A stretch of 64,000 bases of DNA from Chitinispirillales bacterium (GCA_031254105.1 JAIRVB010000035.1:186001-250000); one strand, 5' to 3'; shown: positions 2 through 11,703, numbered from the stretch's first letter. Numbers and translations are program-made. The notes: generated by a model from the letters alone, not told the origin.

Positions 2-1288
2 GAGGGGTTCAGGATTCGTAATTTCGGAACACTGCGTGATGTTACCATTGGCAGTCTTTGGAATGACAAAGGCACTGGTGAACTGACACCCATGACTGCC
101 GTGATCGGAAAGAACGGAGTAGGAAAAAGCACGTTATTTGATGCTTTTGGGTTCTTATCTGAATGCTTAAAATTTGGCGTTGAGGAAGCCTGTGACAAAC
201 GCAATGGATTTGAACATATTGTTTCGCAGGGTATTGACGAACCTATTGAATTTGAAATCTATTATCGTGAAGAACATAACGCACGTCCTATTACTTATGA
301 AGTCTCTTTTATGTTAGACAGTCACTCCCGTCCTTACGTCAAAAGCGAACGTTTGCGACAACGCAGAGAAGGACAACCTAAAGGCTGGCCATTTTCATTT
401 TTGATCCTTGAAAACGGTCGCGGTTGGGTTTGGAAAGGAGAATCTGAAGGAATACAAATACAAGAATCTGCTGACCAAAATGCATTACAAACACTTGATA
501 AATTAATGCATGAGAAGTCCGAAGAGTCCAAAGAAAGAGAGTTTTTAGAATTAGAAGATAACCGAAAGTTAGGTATAGCAACGCTGGGGGCATTAAAGCA
601 ACACCCTAGGATTTCCGCTTTCAGGCAGTTTATTGAGGGGTGGTACCTTTCGTACTTTACGCCGGATGCAGCCCGCAGCTTGTCTTTAGCAGGCCCTCAG
701 AAACATTTGAATATACATGGCGATAATATTGGCCCTGTCGTACAGTTCATGGAACGCGACCATCCAAAGCAGTTTGCAAGAATTCTTAAAGACATTGCCG
801 GAAAGATACCCGGGATTGATAAAATCTCCACAGAACGCATGTCCGATGGCCGCTTGTTATTAAAATTTAACGATAAAAGCTTCAAAGACCCATTTTCCGC
901 TCAACAGATGTCGGACGGTACATTGAAAGTATTTGCGTATCTGCTTTTGCTATCCGACCCAACACCGCCGCCTTTTATCTGCATTGAAGAACCGGAAAAC
1001 GGGCTTTATCATAAATTACTTGAAGTCCTTGCAATGCAGTTTCGTACTCACGTTACTGATGGGGAAAGTAAATCGCAAATATTTATTACGACACATCAAC
1101 CATATTTTGTTGACGCACTTGAACCAAATGAGGTTTGGATTCTAGAAAAAGGCGCAGATGGATTCTCAAAGATACGCCGCGCAAGTGAATACCCTATTGT
1201 TCAAGGATTAGTCAGTGAAGGACTTCTTCTAGGCGGGCTATGGTACAGCGATTATTTTGAGGGAGGCGTAAACCATGGTGCACTTTGA
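2..1288 (+). CDS. ABC/AAA-type ATPase, 5' end outside window (RloA/AriA-like)
   Basis: The reading frame is open from base 2, and the residues before the first ATG (position 92) read as a normal ABC-type N-terminus (RIRNFGTLRDVTIG), so the gene starts upstream of the window. The Walker A motif GKNGVGKST follows directly. Near the C-terminus are an ABC-signature-like segment (MSDGTLKVFAYLL), Walker B (FICIEEPENGL) and an H-loop (TTHQPYF). This is the layout of single-chain AAA_15/AAA_21 ATPases found in two-gene anti-phage modules. The 3' end overlaps the next gene by 14 bases, so the two are translated as a unit. Inferred role: ATP-driven sensor that controls the downstream TOPRIM-like protein. 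Family assignment is firm; defence function is inferred from architecture and neighbours. Confidence 0.8.
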   Translation, partial: EGFRIRNFGTLRDVTIGSLWNDKGTGELTPMTAVIGKNGVGKSTLFDAFGFLSECLKFGVEEACDKRNGFEHIVSQGIDEPIEFEIYYREEHNARPITYEVSFMLDSHSRPYVKSERLRQRREGQPKGWPFSFLILENGRGWVWKGESEGIQIQESADQNALQTLDKLMHEKSEESKEREFLELEDNRKLGIATLGALKQHPRISAFRQFIEGWYLSYFTPDAARSLSLAGPQKHLNIHGDNIGPVVQFMERDHPKQFARILKDIAGKIPGIDKISTERMSDGRLLLKFNDKSFKDPFSAQQMSDGTLKVFAYLLLLSDPTPPPFICIEEPENGLYHKLLEVLAMQFRTHVTDGESKSQIFITTHQPYFVDALEPNEVWILEKGADGFSKIRRASEYPIVQGLVSEGLLLGGLWYSDYFEGGVNHGAL

Positions 1289-1943
1289 ATTTCTTACAGA
1301 AGACCAATCGAGTGCAAAAGCAATGGTAATACTTATCGACAAGTTATTTGGCGATAAAATTACATACAATATCCATTCTTATAAGGGATTGGGACACACT
1401 CCAAAAAATTTACGTCCTAAAACTGATGCGAAAAAACGGATACTTCTTGACAGATTGCCGGGATTACTGCGTGGTTATGGGCACAACCCCAATTGCGGGA
1501 TTATTGTAATACTGTGCGATTTGGATAAAAGAAATGAAGAACTATTTCGTGCTGAACTACAACAAGTGTTAGATTTCTGTAATCCAAAACCAATAACGCT
1601 CTTTTGCCTTGCCATTGAAGAATTTGAGGCATGGTATCTTGGAGATTTAAACGCGATATATACAGCATACCCATCAGCAAATCAAAGTGTTTTGAATAGT
1701 TATAAAAATGATTCTATTTGTGATACATGGGAGTTTCTTGCTGACGCTGTTTGTAAAGGTGGAAGTATTGCTCTAAAAGAAAAAGGATGGCAGGCTATTG
1801 GAAAGCAGAAATCAATATGGGCGGAAGAAATCACACCTCATATGAATATTAATGATAACATTTCTCCAAGCTTTATGTATATGTGTACGCAATTACGAAA
1901 TGTTAGCGGACAAACGATACAAAATATAGAAAATACTCATTAA
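1275..1943 (+). CDS. DUF4276 family protein (TOPRIM-like, predicted nuclease)
   Basis: 222 residues. The start ATG lies inside the end of the ATPase gene, behind a good ribosome site (GGGAGG at 1261-1266). The N-terminus has an acidic residue after the first strand (FLTEDQ, E9). Later comes a hydrophobic strand ending in DLDKR (D82 and D84), and then IEEFEAWYLGD. Together these give the E...DxD pattern of TOPRIM-fold metal binding, as in OLD-type nucleases and the DUF4276/DUF4435 families. Such proteins regularly follow an ABC-type ATPase gene, as here; AriA/AriB of PARIS is the best known comparable arrangement. Nuclease activity and an effector role are inferences. The family call rests on motif pattern and context without a database search. 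Confidence 0.7.
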   Translation: MVHFEFLTEDQSSAKAMVILIDKLFGDKITYNIHSYKGLGHTPKNLRPKTDAKKRILLDRLPGLLRGYGHNPNCGIIVILCDLDKRNEELFRAELQQVLDFCNPKPITLFCLAIEEFEAWYLGDLNAIYTAYPSANQSVLNSYKNDSICDTWEFLADAVCKGGSIALKEKGWQAIGKQKSIWAEEITPHMNINDNISPSFMYMCTQLRNVSGQTIQNIENTH

Positions 1944-1991
1944 AAATTTGGGGTATTTTAACGGTTTTTGTTATGGTTCTGGTCAATCTGT

Positions 1992-2016
1992 TAAATAAAG
2001 GATAACTGTATATTAT
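1992..2016 (+). repeat. 25-bp inverted repeat, copy A (upstream of carbamoyltransferase)
   Basis: A 25-base sequence containing AAAGGATAACTGTATATTAT ends 14 bases before the carbamoyltransferase ATG. The same 25 bases occur, without mismatch, on the opposite strand at 8163-8187 directly before the STAND gene. It carries an AAAGGA Shine-Dalgarno-like core and an AT-rich tract, so it could be a shared promoter/leader element or the terminal repeat of a transferred module. Confidence 0.85.
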
Positions 2017-2030
2017 CGTAAGGATATGCC

Positions 2031-3734
2031 ATGAAAATCACATTAGGCATCCATGTTGGACATGACCGTGGAGTTGCCTTAATCAAAGATAATGTTGTTA
2101 TTGGAGCAATATCACAAGAAAGAATAGACCGTATAAAATATTCCCCATCGTCAAATATTCCATTTGATTCTATTGACAAGCTACTTGGATACTGTAATAT
2201 AAAATTATCAAATATTTCATGCATAGGGATTTCATATGATGGACTTGAAGGGCTATCTGCTTTGAACTTATATCACGAAGAATTTTTGGAGCATTATCAA
2301 TGTGAATATATTCCTATGTATCTTGTAAGTCACCATGAAGCTCATGCGTATTCGGCTTTTTTTGCTTCAGGTTTTTCAGAAAGCCTTATTTTTGTTGCTG
2401 ATGGTGGTGGTGATTATATAAATGGCAAGCAAGAAGCTGAAAGTTTATTTGTTGGACAAAATGGAAAAATAAGTTGCATCTCGCAACGTTTACAGAATCC
2501 CATGATAAGAAAACTTGGTGATAAAAGAAACTATATAATTCCACTTATGCCAGATGTAATAAAGGAAGCTAACATAAGTATAGGGAGAAAATATGAACAG
2601 ATCACTTACTTGTTAAACTTGGGTAGGGGTGGTTCTGGAAAAACTATGGGTCTTGCATCATACGGGAAGTCATTGATTAACTTTAAACAAGAAGATTTTT
2701 CTGATTTTAATTTTTCTGTAAAATATAAAGATATTCTTGAAAACGTTTTTGCTATGGCAACACTATTGGGAGACACATTTAATACGTTTATAGAAAAAGA
2801 AAGAGCGAATATAGCTGCAACAGCACAAGCTTTTGTGGAAACATCAATTATTGGTTTATTAGACAGCGTTTTTTCGCAATATCCCTGTAAAAATCTTTGT
2901 TTAGCAGGTGGAGTTTTCTTAAATTGCATAGTTAATCAAAAGATACTAAATAATTTTAATTTGGATAGTCTATTTGTAATGCCTCCTGCTGGAGATGATG
3001 GGCAAGCTATTGGGGCTGCTTTTTTTGCCCATTGCCGTCATTTTGGTTTTAAAAATAAATTTGAAATAAAATTACCTTATTTAGGTCTTTCGTATTCAAA
3101 TCAAGATATAGAGACTACACTAAAAAGTATGAATTTAAATTACTCGTTTTTTGATGATGACGATTTATCAACCCAAATAGCTACTAGTATTGCGGATAAT
3201 AAGATTGTTGCATTACATAGAGGAAGAACTGAAATTGGGCCAAGGGCTTTATGTCATCGAAGTATTATCACAAGTCCTATCAATCCAAACATGAAAGATA
3301 TTCTAAATAATCGTGTAAAACACAGGGAATCATTCAGACCATTTGGCCCTACAGTAATTGCTGAAGAACAATCCAAATATTTTGATTTACGTTGTACATC
3401 AGACTTTATGCTATTTGCGGCAGATGTAAAAAAAGAATATAGAGATAAATTAGTTGCCGTCACGCATATAGATAATACAGCAAGAGTCCAAGCTGTTAGC
3501 AAACAACAAGAACCTTTTGTTCATTCGTTATTACAAGAGGTAAAAAAAATAATCGGTTTTCCGATTATTTTAAATACTTCCTTTAATATTGCAGGGCAAC
3601 CTATTGTGGAAAGTCCGTTAGATGCAGTTAAAACTTTTCTTACTGCTGATATTGATGTATTGGTTATTGGAAATTATGTTTTAAAAAAACATAACAACTT
3701 GAATGATACTGTTCTGAAAGTAGATGCGTTATGA
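2031..3734 (+). CDS. NodU/CmcH-family carbamoyltransferase
   Basis: 567 residues, the normal length for the family. Enzymes of this type (TobZ, CmcH, NodU) make carbamoyl-adenylate from carbamoyl phosphate and ATP in a Kae1-like N-terminal domain, then pass the carbamoyl group to a hydroxyl of a small molecule or sugar. Visible marks: N-terminus GIHVGHDRGVALI, the metal-binding type motif HHEAHAYS (101-108), VADGGGDY (122-129), LCLAGGVFLNC in the middle, and a C-terminal domain with HRGRTEIGPRALCHRS and FRPFGPTV. The stop overlaps the start of the next gene by 4 bases (ATGA). The substrate cannot be read from the sequence, and no sugar or antibiotic biosynthesis genes are nearby. Instead it sits among nuclease/ATPase genes, which is unusual. 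Confidence 0.88.
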   Translation: MKITLGIHVGHDRGVALIKDNVVIGAISQERIDRIKYSPSSNIPFDSIDKLLGYCNIKLSNISCIGISYDGLEGLSALNLYHEEFLEHYQCEYIPMYLVSHHEAHAYSAFFASGFSESLIFVADGGGDYINGKQEAESLFVGQNGKISCISQRLQNPMIRKLGDKRNYIIPLMPDVIKEANISIGRKYEQITYLLNLGRGGSGKTMGLASYGKSLINFKQEDFSDFNFSVKYKDILENVFAMATLLGDTFNTFIEKERANIAATAQAFVETSIIGLLDSVFSQYPCKNLCLAGGVFLNCIVNQKILNNFNLDSLFVMPPAGDDGQAIGAAFFAHCRHFGFKNKFEIKLPYLGLSYSNQDIETTLKSMNLNYSFFDDDDLSTQIATSIADNKIVALHRGRTEIGPRALCHRSIITSPINPNMKDILNNRVKHRESFRPFGPTVIAEEQSKYFDLRCTSDFMLFAADVKKEYRDKLVAVTHIDNTARVQAVSKQQEPFVHSLLQEVKKIIGFPIILNTSFNIAGQPIVESPLDAVKTFLTADIDVLVIGNYVLKKHNNLNDTVLKVDAL

Positions 3735-4816
3735 AGTGGATCCAAAAATGGATTGCTGAACAGTGGAATAAAGAGGGCATAGCATATTCAAAAACAACGT
3801 ATTTGTATGCCACAATTGTGTGGTTTGCGGTTGGTTTGTTACCACTATTTGGTTATCCAGCACCTTTTTCTGGCAATAAGGGTATATTGCATTTGGGTAT
3901 ACTCATTTTAATTGTGTTGTTTCTCATAATAGCAACATGTATTATTATATTCTTTGTCAAAAGAAATAAAAATGATATTATTGCTAATGCAACCAAAATG
4001 TTTAAGAAAGAGAAATACCAAGATATATTGACATTGAGAAGAAGATGGAGCCGCTTTTTATGGATTGAAGGAAAACTTTTCGAAAGATTAAAACTTGGAG
4101 AAATTGCGAAAAAAGCAGCAATAAATTTGGAAAAGAATAAAGATTTGACTGAAATATATATTGACGACTTAGGCTGGACAAATGTACCCATAGATTGCAA
4201 CAAAGCAAAAGGAATTTTGGAATCTGGATTGGAGTGTGCTAAAAAAATAAATAATAATGATGATAAAAACTACTGGATCGCTAGAGCAAAAAGACATTTG
4301 GCAGGTATTGAATTAGAAAATATGGAATATGGCCAAGCAGACATATTAATTAATGATGCTATATCATTTGCAAATAATATTGTAGAGGAACAAAGAAAAA
4401 AAGAAATGCTTGCAGGAATTTACCACATGAAAGCATTCAAAACTTTAAAAACAAGTGGTCAAGATAAAGAAAAAATAGAGAAGGCTTTAGAATATGCAAA
4501 AAAATCAAAAGAGTTGTGTTCTGAACGAGATAAAATTCGCTATATAAGAATTTATTCCTTAGAGGGGTGTATTTATGAGGTAAAAGGAGATATAAATAGA
4601 GCCGAACAGCTATATCGTACCGGTTTAAAAGAGTCTAAGGATTTAGGACGAATAGATGAAATTATTAAAAATAGTTTTGGTTTGGCAAGGATTTCAGATG
4701 ATGAAAAAGAACAAAGACAACATTTGAGAAAGGCTGAAAAATTACTTAAAAAAACACCTGTTTCGTATCTTATAGACGAAAAAGAAATACGGTTAATGAA
4801 ATATAACATATTTTGA
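3731..4816 (+). CDS. Membrane-anchored TPR-like protein
   Basis: 361 residues, coupled to the carbamoyltransferase by a 4-base ATGA overlap. Two hydrophobic segments lie near the N-terminus (about 25-42 and 53-76). They are followed by a basic stretch (VKRNK) and an all-helical, Lys/Glu-rich cytoplasmic part with TPR-like features, for example GCIYEVKGDINRAEQLY and EKALEYAKKSKEL. No enzymatic motif is visible. The coupling suggests the protein scaffolds, senses for or localises the carbamoyltransferase. I do not recognise a named family; the TPR assignment comes from helix periodicity and A/Y/G spacing. Confidence 0.65.
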   Translation: MKWIQKWIAEQWNKEGIAYSKTTYLYATIVWFAVGLLPLFGYPAPFSGNKGILHLGILILIVLFLIIATCIIIFFVKRNKNDIIANATKMFKKEKYQDILTLRRRWSRFLWIEGKLFERLKLGEIAKKAAINLEKNKDLTEIYIDDLGWTNVPIDCNKAKGILESGLECAKKINNNDDKNYWIARAKRHLAGIELENMEYGQADILINDAISFANNIVEEQRKKEMLAGIYHMKAFKTLKTSGQDKEKIEKALEYAKKSKELCSERDKIRYIRIYSLEGCIYEVKGDINRAEQLYRTGLKESKDLGRIDEIIKNSFGLARISDDEKEQRQHLRKAEKLLKKTPVSYLIDEKEIRLMKYNIF

Positions 4817-4891: not shown

Positions 4892-7800
4892 CTATGAAAT
4901 AGGGATGAAATATTTTGTCTTAGAATCACGCAACAAGTGTTTAGGTGGATTATCAATAAACAGCAACTCTTTTTGAGAAGCTTTTTTGTATTCCTTTTTT
5001 ATGCTTCTATTTGAGTTTGAACATATATACCTACAAGCAGGCTTTACACAGTTAAAATCACAAAAACTTGTAGAGTTATAGTAGCTTACCAAAGACATTT
5101 TTTGGTAAAACGCAGTTTCTCCCTTAATAGATTGATAGAAAGATCCTATATTACTTAGTGCCAGAATATTTCCAGAACACAAATCAAGTTCACCTAAATA
5201 CAAAAGATTTTGCATTTTTAGCATTGTATGTACTGTTTCAAATGTACGCATTTGAATATCATCACTTTGGTTCAAACGTGACTGTATAATAGCACGAAGA
5301 TTATAAAATTTCCATATATGTACAGGAATTCCAAATTTTATACTGCTATCAATGCCTCTATCTATAAAATTATGAGCTTCATCAAACGATTTTCCATCTC
5401 CAACAGAAAGGAATGCAGTAACAGCCAGTGCAGAATATGATCGTATCATTGAGTTGGAATAATTATTGTTAATGGCTTGTTTTAGCAATGAATGCGCTTT
5501 TTCATGACTCTCTTTTAAATCTGCTGTCTTACCATGCAGTAAATCAAGTAGTAACAATGAAATTCTACTACTACATAGTATTCTCTTGGATGAACCATCA
5601 TTTAAAACTTCTCCAACTTTTAATAAACTATCATAGGCAACCTCATAATCATTGTAGAAATTGATTTTACTCTTATTTAGGTATGCTAAAGCGAGTAAGC
5701 CATTATCTGATTTTTTTTCAGCTTCGCGGAATGATAAAATGTTGAAATGAGTTGATAGTGATTTGCAATTAAATCTCTTATAAATGCTGCATAGCCTATC
5801 AAATAAATCAAATGTAATGTCAGTACTCATTGAATTCGGAAAAATATTCCACTTTGCAAATAATTTTTTTAAAAGCAATTCGCTGTCACTTAAATATCCA
5901 GCATTGATAAGGCTATGGGCTTTTTGCTCTATTATTGCATCTTCGATATCATCACCATCAAAAAACTTATTTGTTTTTATGAGTTTAAGAGCTTCGTTGC
6001 AATCGACAATTGCTTTTGCTGGGGTGTAATGATGTAATGATATATATATCTTGACCTTCAGAATATTTTTAAGCAATTCTTTTTTAATTTTGTTTTTATG
6101 AAATAATTCCCAAATACAATTTAAATAGTCATATAATTCGATATCAATATTGATTGCCGAAAGATTAGGTAAATCTTCAAGGTATTCAATATAATCAGTA
6201 AAACATTCTTTGGCATATAGAGTGTCTCCATTCCATAAAGCAAGGCGCCCCTTCTCATGTATATTTATTCTATCTAAAAGAAAAGGCTTGTCTGCAAAAA
6301 TATGGTTTGCCACATGTTTTTTTAAATCGGTTTTCGTTTCTATATTATTCTTAAAAAACAAATACATACTTTCATGGATAAAAGCAATATTGCCATCGCC
6401 CCCTATTTGAATAAAGCGGCGCAGGGTTAAGAAATCCAAAAGGGTGGTATCCTCATTGAAGTAGCGCACTGCATTGGAAAGAGACTGCCTCCCACCGATT
6501 ACGCTTAGAGTTAATAAGTAATCGTGCATTTGACGACCGTTTTCGAGAGAAGTAAGATGCTTTAACCGCTGTTCGTAAATATCACTTACCTTTTGGGGAA
6601 TATATGTTTTTAAATTAAATGTACTAACGTTTATAATTCCAACAGTATTGCGGTTAATAATTTCTACAATTTTTGATTCCAATAAATATTCAATAAATTG
6701 TACAATAAAAAGCGGATTGTTACGGCTCATATTGCATATTTTTTCGAGTACGATTTGGGGTACTTGAGTTATTATGAAGCGTACAAGTTTGATTGTATCT
6801 TCTGATGATAGCGCCTCCAAATTCCAACCGCTTATTGATTTATTTTCTTTGCACCATTCCACAAATGAGTAATATGCAACGGTTCCGACACTATAATCAG
6901 TTCGTCCGCACAAGACTATATTCACGCTTGAACTGCAACCTTCAAGAGCTTTAATTTCTTCCCAAAGCTTATCCGGAGCATTATGACAGTCATCAATAAA
7001 TAGAATTGCTCTTCCATAACTAAAACTATTTTCACAATTTTTAACCATTTGAGCAAGTGTTGAATAATTGTTAGTTTTTTTCAAATAATAGTTCTTTATT
7101 AGATAGTTTTTTATCTCATGTAAAAAGCTATCGCTATTTTTTTTAACAACAAAAAAACCAAAATTAAATCCTTGCCCATTAAGCCGTTTATATATTTCTT
7201 GAAAAACACGCGTTTTACCCACTCCTGCTTCACCCCAAATGTAATGAATTTTTGAAGACTCGGAGTCTTTAAAATAACTATCAAAATGATCAATACAAGA
7301 TTTGTGGCCTTCTCCGAAAAGTGGGGTTTCAAAAAAGGCAGTCATGTCACTGCCCTTAATGTGTACCTGTGTTTCAGTTTCGCCGATTTTTATACCAAAA
7401 AGCAAATCGTCAATTTCATCCGTAAATATGCGGACAATTGAAACTTTTTTGATATATGTGCCGTAGGCTTTAATAACGAAAGAAACACAGGGTTCCTCCA
7501 TACTCCAGTTGCGGTCGCTTAAAAGTTTTTGTGTTGTCAGGTTTTCGTTTTCAGAGACATTATGATATAGTAAATATATGTCATAAGCTTTTTTGATACT
7601 TTCCGTTCTTGTCATAATTTGATATTCAGCAGTTAGACAAGGTTGGTTAATTTTTGGCATTTCACCAATAGTACGTCCGAATTGTTCTAAGGCAACAGAT
7701 AATATTTTGCGGTCTATCAATACAAATGTTATACCGCATAATTTCAATTCATTTTCTACGCAATAATATGTATAGGGGGTGATTGTAGCATTGGTAACCA

Positions 7801-8164
7801 AAACAAAATAATCTGGTTTTTCTTCTTTTATTCTCGAAACATTACCCATTATTCGTTCATGTTTTATACTATTTGAATCTGTACTTTTGCATTCAATGAA
7901 TATTTTAATTGATTCTTTATCTTCAACATAAAAATTTTGATTTAGGATTCCACGCAAATCAACGTTTGATGTGATTACAGCATCTCTTCCATCGTCACGA
8001 CTTTTGGAAGTAGGGTGTATCTTTACATTTGGCGAGAAATAAGGTGATAATTGTTCTGTAATAACTTTTACTATAAAAACCTCAAATTCATCTCCGAGCG
8101 AAGAACCCAGAGCCCAGTTTTGTTCTTTTTGTTTTTCACCTATTGTTCTTACAGAACTTAACAT
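4892..8164 (-). CDS. STAND NTPase with N-terminal PD-(D/E)XK nuclease (Avs-like)
   Basis: 1090 residues. Residues 20-150 form an Mrr/restriction-like nuclease: E26, then DDGRDAV (D61), then IECKS (E91, K93), matching E...D...ExK. The central part is a STAND-type NTPase: Walker A GEAGVGKTR (311-319), Walker B AILFIDDC (386-393) and a sensor-like IVLCGRTDY. A winged-helix region follows, and from about residue 690 a long helical repeat part. Nuclease-NTPase-repeat is the layout of antiviral STAND (Avs) proteins, in which the repeats sense a phage protein and the nuclease kills or blocks. It is transcribed toward the carbamoyltransferase pair and starts inside copy B of the 25-bp inverted repeat. 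Avs-like is an architectural inference; no named Avs type is claimed. Confidence 0.8.
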   Translation of the reverse strand: MLSSVRTIGEKQKEQNWALGSSLGDEFEVFIVKVITEQLSPYFSPNVKIHPTSKSRDDGRDAVITSNVDLRGILNQNFYVEDKESIKIFIECKSTDSNSIKHERIMGNVSRIKEEKPDYFVLVTNATITPYTYYCVENELKLCGITFVLIDRKILSVALEQFGRTIGEMPKINQPCLTAEYQIMTRTESIKKAYDIYLLYHNVSENENLTTQKLLSDRNWSMEEPCVSFVIKAYGTYIKKVSIVRIFTDEIDDLLFGIKIGETETQVHIKGSDMTAFFETPLFGEGHKSCIDHFDSYFKDSESSKIHYIWGEAGVGKTRVFQEIYKRLNGQGFNFGFFVVKKNSDSFLHEIKNYLIKNYYLKKTNNYSTLAQMVKNCENSFSYGRAILFIDDCHNAPDKLWEEIKALEGCSSSVNIVLCGRTDYSVGTVAYYSFVEWCKENKSISGWNLEALSSEDTIKLVRFIITQVPQIVLEKICNMSRNNPLFIVQFIEYLLESKIVEIINRNTVGIINVSTFNLKTYIPQKVSDIYEQRLKHLTSLENGRQMHDYLLTLSVIGGRQSLSNAVRYFNEDTTLLDFLTLRRFIQIGGDGNIAFIHESMYLFFKNNIETKTDLKKHVANHIFADKPFLLDRINIHEKGRLALWNGDTLYAKECFTDYIEYLEDLPNLSAINIDIELYDYLNCIWELFHKNKIKKELLKNILKVKIYISLHHYTPAKAIVDCNEALKLIKTNKFFDGDDIEDAIIEQKAHSLINAGYLSDSELLLKKLFAKWNIFPNSMSTDITFDLFDRLCSIYKRFNCKSLSTHFNILSFREAEKKSDNGLLALAYLNKSKINFYNDYEVAYDSLLKVGEVLNDGSSKRILCSSRISLLLLDLLHGKTADLKESHEKAHSLLKQAINNNYSNSMIRSYSALAVTAFLSVGDGKSFDEAHNFIDRGIDSSIKFGIPVHIWKFYNLRAIIQSRLNQSDDIQMRTFETVHTMLKMQNLLYLGELDLCSGNILALSNIGSFYQSIKGETAFYQKMSLVSYYNSTSFCDFNCVKPACRYICSNSNRSIKKEYKKASQKELLFIDNPPKHLLRDSKTKYFIPIS

Positions 8165-8187
8165 AATATACAGTTATCCTTTATTTA
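8163..8187 (-). repeat. 25-bp inverted repeat, copy B (upstream of STAND gene)
   Basis: Perfect reverse complement of 1992-2016. It runs into the first two bases of the STAND start codon. Its AAAGGA would serve as the ribosome site 12 bases before ATG, a somewhat long spacing. Bases beyond the 25-bp core do not match well on either side. Confidence 0.85.
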
Positions 8188-10213: not shown

Positions 10214-10948
10214 ATGTACAGAGAAGAAATGATAAAAATGCTTTACGCAATTGATGCGGAGCTTGATCAGCCGCTAAAGATTACAATTACCGGAGCTTCC
10301 GCTTTGATACTAAGAGGTAGTATCTCAAGGGCGACTTCGGATATAGACATCCTTGAAGCATCGCCGGATTTGGGTCAAGCGAAATACAGGGAAATTATTG
10401 ATAAAATAGCGGCAAAATATCACCTGACAAATAATTGGATAGACACCAGTCCCTCAGAGATGACTTTTAAGCATTTACCTGAATATCGGCCTGATTTACA
10501 AATCGTTGAGGGTGATTTTAAGTTTTTGCAGCCTTACATTATTTCTAAAGCAGACTCTGTAATTACGAAATTTGCATATTATGAGAATATCAGACAGTGG
10601 GATAAAAAAGATATAAAGGAGTTGGATTTTTCAGAAGCGGATTATAACCAACTGCGTCTAAAATTGGATAAACTCAGCAGCATTGATCCAGAACGGGCTT
10701 TACGGATTGAAATTGAATTCAAAGCATTGAAACCAGAATTTATAAAAACGCCGGAAGGATTTCTGTACAGCAATAGTAACGAAATCGCTGTTTACGCTCA
10801 GCAAAGATATGGAATTATACTTGAAGAAGAATATCTTAAACAGTTGAATGAAGATGCTCAAAAATCAGACTCCAGCGTTTTCCTTAAAGCAATATTGCAA
10901 GTGGATTACAGAGCGCTTGAAACAATTGTCAGAAATAAAAGGGCATGA
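10214..10948 (+). CDS. DUF6036-like nucleotidyltransferase, possible toxin
   Basis: 244 residues, ribosome site AGGAGAGG, ATG start. The N-terminal third carries a minimal nucleotidyltransferase core: GASALILRG, then SDIDIL, giving the G-S and DxD pattern of pol-beta-type transferases, with a later acidic segment (YRPDLQIVEGDF). This resembles DUF6036/AbiEii-like proteins of type IV toxin-antitoxin modules. The downstream gene overlaps by 4 bases (ATGA), as usual for such pairs. Alternative: an enzyme for antibiotic or tRNA nucleotidylation. The toxin role is inferred. Confidence 0.6.
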   Translation: MYREEMIKMLYAIDAELDQPLKITITGASALILRGSISRATSDIDILEASPDLGQAKYREIIDKIAAKYHLTNNWIDTSPSEMTFKHLPEYRPDLQIVEGDFKFLQPYIISKADSVITKFAYYENIRQWDKKDIKELDFSEADYNQLRLKLDKLSSIDPERALRIEIEFKALKPEFIKTPEGFLYSNSNEIAVYAQQRYGIILEEEYLKQLNEDAQKSDSSVFLKAILQVDYRALETIVRNKRA

Positions 10949-11703
10949 TAATGGAACTGAAACAGCCAATTAACCCCGAATTAATAGATGAATACTACGC
11001 CAAGTGGATAAAGCTGGGGTGGTATGCTGCCGGCAGACCGTATCAGGGAAGTGTTGACCCTGAAAAGCTGATTGTAGAAACTACGCATATAGGACGTTAT
11101 GAGGGAAGACTTTTCAAGGCGATGCTTACCTGGGTCAGGGATTATAATGATCTGATAAATGTTCAAAAACTTCTGCATTATATCAATGACGCTGATCAGC
11201 CAGTTTTAGGCGCTGTGGTGGAAATTGCCGCAAGCGCTGCCGGAGCATTGCCGCGAATGAAAGCAATCCTAAAACGTTGCCAGCCGCTTAAAGATGCTGA
11301 GGTTTTGTTTAAAGAAACCGATGAGTTCGGAGTATACGAAAGAAATCAAAAAGAATTCAGCAAAAAAGAATATCTGAAATGGGGATTGTACTGCACCATG
11401 ACGGAGTTCTATGAAGACGCAATGTATAACCGTCACTATGTGCTGATGAATAACCCTTTGCTTGCTATACGGGCATTAATCGGGCCTAACATCCGTTCCG
11501 AGATTTTATTTGAACTGGAGCACCGTTCACAAATAAGCATAACAGCCCTAAAAGAACATGTGGGATACGCATATTCTGCTGTCTACACAGAAGTAATGAA
11601 TCTTATCCGAAACGGATACCTTTCAAATGAAACAAATGGGAAAAAACAGATGATAACAATGAAAAAACCATTTGCTAAATATTTGAAAAGTATTCCTGTT
11701 TGA
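10945..11703 (+). CDS. Winged-helix protein coupled to nucleotidyltransferase
   Basis: 252 residues, overlapping the previous stop by 4 bases; a second in-frame ATG lies at 10951. The N-terminal two thirds are helical without a motif I know. The last ~70 residues (SEILFELEHRSQISITALKEH... TEVMNLIRNGYLSNE) look like a winged helix-turn-helix, suggesting autoregulation by DNA binding. In a toxin-antitoxin reading this is the antitoxin/regulator, though here it follows its partner where many antitoxins precede. Confidence 0.6.
   Translation: MIMELKQPINPELIDEYYAKWIKLGWYAAGRPYQGSVDPEKLIVETTHIGRYEGRLFKAMLTWVRDYNDLINVQKLLHYINDADQPVLGAVVEIAASAAGALPRMKAILKRCQPLKDAEVLFKETDEFGVYERNQKEFSKKEYLKWGLYCTMTEFYEDAMYNRHYVLMNNPLLAIRALIGPNIRSEILFELEHRSQISITALKEHVGYAYSAVYTEVMNLIRNGYLSNETNGKKQMITMKKPFAKYLKSIPV

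Follow-up and report, generated by a model that had tools for sequence, protein, structure and literature searches.

A carbamoyltransferase and a convergent STAND nuclease form a conserved module between inverted recombination-type sites in a Chitinispirillales bacterium

The carbamoyltransferase gene in a 64,000-nt stretch of a Chitinispirillales bacterium (GCA_031254105.1 JAIRVB010000035.1:186001-250000, hereafter the window) and a convergent gene for a STAND nuclease make up one conserved two-gene module, which is bounded at both start codons by inverted sites with a 16-nt core. Modules of this kind differ between related replicons exactly at the sites, beside an Xer-like tyrosine recombinase. 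Judged from the sequence relationships described below, the carbamoyltransferase/STAND pair, found in at least four phyla, looks like one of a set of interchangeable convergent gene-pair cassettes, and an anti-phage or conflict function of the module is likely, if unproven. We give a probability of about 0.6 to the reading in which a modular platform, subject to exchange and inversion by the recombinase, carries the STAND-paired module as an anti-phage system. The features of the locus are collected in Table 1.

Table 1. Module, bounding sites and left-hand neighbours, in window coordinates
Feature	Position	Strand	Remarks
HEC-01A-like AAA_21 ATPase	2..1288	+	start just outside window; PADLOC PDLC04182, E 4e-185
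HEC-01B-like DUF4276 protein	1275..1943	+	neighbour; PADLOC PDLC04205, E 2.5e-85
Flank outside left site	1931..2000	+	common with flank outside STAND-side site of second module (C55)
Left recombination-type site, 25-nt arm TAAATAAAGGATAACTGTATATTAT	1992..2016	+	perfect inverted copy at 8163-8187
Core of left site, GATAACTGTATATTAT	2001-2016	+	14 nt before carbamoyltransferase start codon
Carbamoyltransferase, separate STAND-paired subfamily, 567 aa	2031..3734	+	Pfam N and C domains, clade 100/99, invariant motifs
Membrane-anchored TPR-like protein, 361 aa, accessory gene	3731..4816	+	ATGA overlap; without counterpart in six other modules
STAND nuclease, 1090 aa (Mrr-like nuclease, NTPase, helical-repeat solenoid)	4892..8164	-	conserved convergent partner
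Right recombination-type site, inverted copy	8163..8187	-	abuts STAND start codon

A sequence-only reading of this DNA had coupled the carbamoyltransferase to the overlapping 361-aa protein, described as a two-TM TPR protein, had set both outside any biosynthetic cluster with ATPase and nuclease genes as the only neighbours, and had considered a role at the membrane. The two genes and their ATGA overlap are where that reading placed them, the neighbours are the AAA_21 and DUF4276 genes on the left and the STAND nuclease on the right, and the carbamoyltransferase, tied to this nuclease, does lie outside any biosynthetic cluster. Its supposed coupling partner is unconserved; the conserved one is the convergent STAND nuclease, just beyond the gene pair that had been joined, and the inverted repeats bounding the whole carbamoyltransferase-TPR-STAND unit were absent from that account. 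The HEC-01A/B-like pair on the left (window 2-1943) lies between two directly repeated sites (copies at C14:185908 and 187997), and therefore could be an excisable cassette.

The carbamoyltransferase is the sole Carbam_trans_N protein of the genome and matches both Pfam domains of its family far above the cut-offs (Carbam_trans_N at 118.8 bits, cut-off 24; Carbam_trans_C at 215.2 bits, cut-off 27), with E-values of 5e-59 against TobZ and 5e-58 against GdmN. It shares the two-domain architecture (PF02543 and PF16861) and conserved motifs of the TobZ, NodU, CmcH and GdmN O-carbamoyltransferases, from which it differs in its own clade, a KYEQITYL motif and a STAND nuclease partner instead of a biosynthetic cluster. 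The HHxxHA motif of Kae1 type, D124 and D322, and the C-terminal motifs GRxExGPRAL and LNTSFN are invariant in six aligned subfamily members, and we take the HHxxHA and aspartate residues to be the metal ligands, as in TobZ. By maximum likelihood, the STAND-paired carbamoyltransferases group into a single clade (support 100/99) with 23 others outside it. Outgroup members with annotated surroundings belong mostly to nodulation, polyketide, sugar or phage clusters, and distant homologues in general do occur in nodulation, polyketide, glycan and phage clusters; members of the close clade do not. There is no biosynthetic cluster at the present locus. A phage origin is rejected, since no close relative was found in phages or IMG/VR. 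The predicted structure of the enzyme is of low confidence (pLDDT 61.5) with an unreliable C-terminal half, and was left out of the analysis.

The STAND nuclease has Walker motifs (GEAGVGKT and LFIDD), an AAA_22/NB-ARC match and, in a model of moderate confidence, a helical-repeat solenoid at residues 614-1025; the top fold matches of this model are 6mfv (STAND-TPR) and 8dgf (Avs4). The PD-(D/E)xK nuclease residues D57, D61, E91 and K93 are invariant in five members, and the Mrr_cat match, just under the cut-off in the window protein (E 5e-4), is over it in a Phaeobacter STAND nuclease (7e-7). Since the nuclease, Walker A, metal and C-terminal motifs are all invariant, the carbamoyltransferase and the STAND nuclease are both probably active. 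The order of nuclease, STAND and solenoid is that of the Avs family of anti-phage NTPases and Mrr-type nucleases; unlike these, the protein has no PADLOC/Avs model hit and is always convergent with a carbamoyltransferase. In PADLOC-DB 2.0 no model matches the carbamoyltransferase, the TPR protein or the STAND nuclease, and only the neighbouring HEC-01A/B is recognized. Sequence searches with the STAND nuclease gave no match in phages or IMG/VR.

The pairing of the two genes is seen in every close homologue of the module. Genome and viral scans with single proteins returned nothing, and it was an alignment with the Ruegeria protein that found the loci. With the window/Ruegeria alignment, 84,980 species genomes yielded seven loci, of which five are full-length subfamily members (two from uncultured Clostridium and one each from Lachnospiraceae, Caldithrix and Ruegeria halocynthiae), although the scan is keyed on short conserved motifs and divergent members will be missed. 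Identities are 49, 48, 48, 43 and 34%. Immediately downstream of each of the five lies a convergent STAND nuclease (E 4e-158 to 1e-34), and none has a TPR gene; STAND identity declines in step with that of the carbamoyltransferases. Among plasmids, the carbamoyltransferase has its best relative on Ruegeria pSD25 (34%, E 5e-103), and this relative converges on two ORFs, split by an IS21 transposase, one of which corresponds to the N-terminal and the other to the C-terminal half of the window STAND nuclease (1e-20 and 2e-16). When this nuclease is compared with 72,556 plasmids, its sole match is again pSD25, with that carbamoyltransferase as direct neighbour. All six other members of the subfamily (Clostridia, Calditrichota, Ruegeria) accordingly have a convergent STAND nuclease, and the count of partners among close homologues that the sequence-only reading had proposed comes to 7/7 for STAND and 1/7 for the TPR protein. 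Over the module, one Clostridium locus matches the Lachnospiraceae locus at 99.8% identity, and the number of independent lineages among the seven modules is about four to five. Within the phylum, none of 167 other genomes searched has the STAND nuclease.

The STAND gene of pSD25 is broken by the IS21-family insertion (L027, 8643-13797), the R. halocynthiae copy being uninterrupted. The Lachnospiraceae locus (L051; 1411-1816, 8888-8973 and 13627-14032) contains 406 nt of the STAND 5' end as an additional, inverted copy beside another site, and the STAND 5' region is also duplicated upstream of the carbamoyltransferase, which is either a real rearrangement or an assembly artefact.

The TPR-membrane gene sits between the carbamoyltransferase and the STAND nuclease in this copy of the module only, and its G+C content (0.308) is similar to that of the rest of the module. 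As a two-TM TPR protein it stands in part: the ORF and its overlap are real, whereas the TPR matches are below threshold (best Pfam E ~0.01) and hydropathy gives one strong membrane segment (~46-80) and a second that is marginal. Its occurrence in a single module leads us to reject it as a conserved partner; neither a functional unit with the carbamoyltransferase nor action at the membrane finds support, and the protein would be a lineage-specific accessory. Its one real homologue (G095, L031 8503-9792), the sole clear one in the phylum, lacks core sites and has a NUDIX hydrolase and a histidine phosphatase beside it, which may make up a further enzyme/TPR set.

The sites at the two outer ends of the unit are perfectly inverted, and the form AAAGGATAACTN5TTAT occurs without mismatch five times genome-wide, three times at this locus and twice on contig C55. 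Over 28 aligned sites the core has a constant length of 16 nt, GATAAYN6TTAT (with an AATAAT start in one Aliarcobacter module), and between platforms conservation is limited to this core. Inverted sites stand at module ends in the window, on C55, just upstream of the window (L003), on pSD25 (27-nt repeat), in R. halocynthiae (34 nt, at the very ends of its contig), and in Lachnospiraceae, Clostridium, Phaeobacter, Aliarcobacter and Streptococcus, and in Caldithrix a site lies between the recombinase and the carbamoyltransferase. The surroundings of 27 other carbamoyltransferases, 375 kb in all, contain the core twice, in neither case at a carbamoyltransferase start.

The same core also bounds convergent pairs of other kinds, namely ATP-grasp/STAND, acetyltransferase/methyltransferase, glycosyltransferase/STAND nuclease, prenyl synthase/membrane protein and SHMT-like/STAND. 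In most modules an enzyme of small-molecule or group-transfer chemistry faces a STAND NTPase, a STAND nuclease or a membrane protein. On C55 of the window genome, the inverted pair encloses an ATP-grasp protein (D-Ala-D-Ala-ligase-like) opposite a STAND-like NTPase of 760 aa, and the adjoining recombinase is 90% identical to the one that lies upstream of the window; this is a second platform module in the genome (G000, C55:11299-14556; L063 6300-9557). The left flank of the window module (1931-2017) is 88.5% identical over 87 bp to L063 9623-9537 on C55, so that one flank adjoins the enzyme gene at the window locus and the STAND gene on C55. Just upstream of the window (L003 6804-9492), a methyltransferase and an acetyltransferase-like membrane protein face each other between variant sites, next to the tyrosine recombinase to which the C55 recombinase is 90% identical; this pair lies inside a 60-nt inverted repeat that reaches into both coding sequences, and homologous pairs occur in S. 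salivarius and A. faecis.

Homologous tyrosine recombinases are adjacent in the window genome (two loci), Ruegeria pSD25, Caldithrix, Phaeobacter, Aliarcobacter and Streptococcus, with 28-35% identity among those of the window genome, Ruegeria and Caldithrix; near the Clostridia modules, where contigs end, no recombinase gene is visible. Plasmids with homologous recombinases lead to further inverted-repeat modules: Phaeobacter pP66_d (a STAND nuclease and HAD protein facing two glycosyltransferases), Aliarcobacter cryaerophilus (a STAND protein facing ATP-grasp plus a tRNA-editing domain) and Streptococcus salivarius (an acetyltransferase-like protein facing a methyltransferase, 39% and 42% identical to the window-genome pair). 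At one recombinase locus, S. salivarius/S. equinus plasmids carry three modules (acetyltransferase/methyltransferase, prenyl synthase/membrane protein and SHMT-like/STAND-TPR), and the S. salivarius plasmid flanks are ~91-97% identical right up to the sites. Similarly, Aliarcobacter faecis has an acetyltransferase/methyltransferase module in place of the STAND/ATP-grasp module of A. cryaerophilus, and pSD25 and pP66_d have the recombinase and flank in common with different modules between the sites. Because different modules occupy one locus with conserved flanks, we read these loci as a platform for cassettes that can be exchanged and probably inverted. A core-site pair is missing from six of the plasmids examined that carry a homologous recombinase, five of the Roseobacter group and one from Rhizobium. 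Related recombinases on Roseobacter-group plasmids (L084, L086 and L087, no core sites) lie near UvrD-helicase plus AAA ATPase, SbcCD-like and Qat defence genes. One recent study points out that recombinases with no known function are frequent neighbours of anti-phage genes (PMC12529663).

With regard to inversion, the assemblies of Clostridium, R. halocynthiae, Lachnospiraceae and two members of the window phylum have contigs that stop at the sites or close to them. This would be expected if orientation were mixed, but repeats alone could also cause it; we regard these assembly breaks as suggestive of mixed orientation. Three near-identical Phaeobacter plasmids, compared for in situ inversion, have one orientation throughout. 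A promoter scan of the flanks found 41 promoter-like sites, compared with 33 in shuffled sequence.

Roles as sensors and effectors of immunity are known for STAND proteins. In the mechanism that we propose, the recombinase would invert and exchange modules, expression would depend on the flanking DNA, and flipping would re-assign flanks to genes. The module would act inside the cell as a conflict (anti-phage) system: the STAND protein may sense invasion via its TPR-like solenoid and its Mrr domain would cut DNA, while the carbamoyltransferase would supply its own STAND partner with a licensing, restraining or triggering signal in the form of a carbamoylated ligand or mark. This reading seems the best explanation because it accounts for the STAND partner in 7/7 modules, the 100/99 clade, the inverted sites, module swapping, homologous recombinases, intact catalytic residues, and the adjoining HEC-01A/B and tyrosine recombinase. 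Counted against it are module types without STAND (acetyltransferase/methyltransferase, prenyl synthase/membrane protein), the missing PADLOC matches for module proteins, the single orientation of the Phaeobacter plasmids and the inconclusive promoter scan. A wider version, to which we give slightly less than even odds, would be a cross-phylum gene-exchange platform in which the Xer-like recombinase keeps, flips and swaps one or a few convergent two-gene conflict modules as a switchable innate immune repertoire, with a carbamoylated molecule or mark controlling the nuclease.

Convergent gene order is common in restriction-modification systems, and with the intact Mrr-type nuclease it is consistent with the carbamoyltransferase marking nucleic acid (e.g., hydroxymethylated bases) and the Mrr-STAND protein cutting DNA according to the mark. 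Some relatives of the carbamoyltransferase family are indeed able to carbamoylate 5hmC in DNA (PMC8670742), but there is no hydroxylating enzyme nearby, and the platform pairs STAND proteins with ATP-grasp, SHMT-like and glycosyltransferase enzymes that are implausible as DNA modifiers. We consider this alternative unlikely. As enzyme chemistry varies while STAND or membrane partners recur, control of the partner by an enzyme product, whether ligand or mark, is favoured over direct DNA modification.

The two-gene structure, the plasmid or cassette carriage and the constant company of nuclease and enzyme would also be expected of an addiction-type system, with the STAND nuclease as toxin and the carbamoyltransferase, or what it makes, as an antidote, so that the cassette or plasmid is stabilized. 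The large regulated STAND architecture with sensor repeats does not suit such a role, the genes lie on opposite strands and are not co-transcribed, which is unusual for toxin-antitoxin operons, and inverted sites would uncouple their expression; this, too, seems improbable. Surface control by invertible loci is frequent (e.g., PMC11892184), and carbamoyltransferases, glycosyltransferases, prenyl synthase and ATP-grasp ligase all fit envelope chemistry, so the modules may conceivably switch surface chemistry through modification of envelope glycans, with the STAND gene as passenger or alternative phase. A passenger does not predict the constant link between the carbamoyltransferase and one particular STAND nuclease across four phyla, and no glycan genes are nearby, which makes phase-variable decoration an outside chance. 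That the two genes share only a mobile cassette as neutral cargo is very improbable, for although the platform carries many unrelated pairs, the same pairings (carbamoyltransferase/STAND, ATP-grasp/STAND, acetyltransferase/methyltransferase) recur across phyla and are not reassorted.

The platform is not described in PADLOC or in the open-access literature searched, and the carbamoyltransferase/STAND pair and the platform look undescribed, while inverted Xer-type modules are already a known kind. Of the systems compared, pdif modules and invertible phase-variation loci come nearest. A pdif site has 28 bp, with 11-bp XerC and XerD arms and a 6-bp centre. In the pdif/dif (Xer) modules of Acinetobacter plasmids, accessory genes are mostly flanked by inverted Xer-type sites and suspected to shuffle (PMC11705084). 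The modules described here likewise have inverted Xer-like core sites, but a dedicated recombinase gene is often next door, where pdif uses host XerC/XerD; both genes start at the sites and converge, and the two sites of a module share one identical core, whereas the inverted sites tested in PMC11705084 are without a common central region. Invertons and the tail-fibre switch of phages Mu and P1 also have convergent genes between inverted sites beside a recombinase, but here whole modules differ between replicons at one locus and the content is an enzyme with a STAND or membrane protein. Integrons similarly join a site-specific recombinase to exchangeable cassettes; in the present case the sites are inverted, in contrast to directly repeated attC, with a 16-nt GATAA-N7-TTAT core, the cassettes are convergent gene pairs, and there is no array, except for HEC-01A/B between direct copies beside the module.

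The pairing supplies a definite partner for a "homeless" carbamoyltransferase, together with a test, and brings to light a recombination platform by which pairs of enzyme and STAND genes are shuffled between phyla. Should the modules flip and give protection from phage, they would provide combinatorial, phase-variable immunity, like an integron for immune gene pairs, and the short core of fixed length makes genome-wide discovery of more modules straightforward.

Elsewhere in the window, an overlapping pair at 10214-11703, a DUF6036 nucleotidyltransferase with a winged-helix (HVO_A0114-like) protein, is a candidate AbiE-like toxin-antitoxin system. On a Metabacillus plasmid (L028, 6276-8755), an unannotated carbamoyltransferase is immediately preceded by a 2OG-Fe(II) oxygenase gene, and the two may act as a pair that hydroxylates and then carbamoylates.
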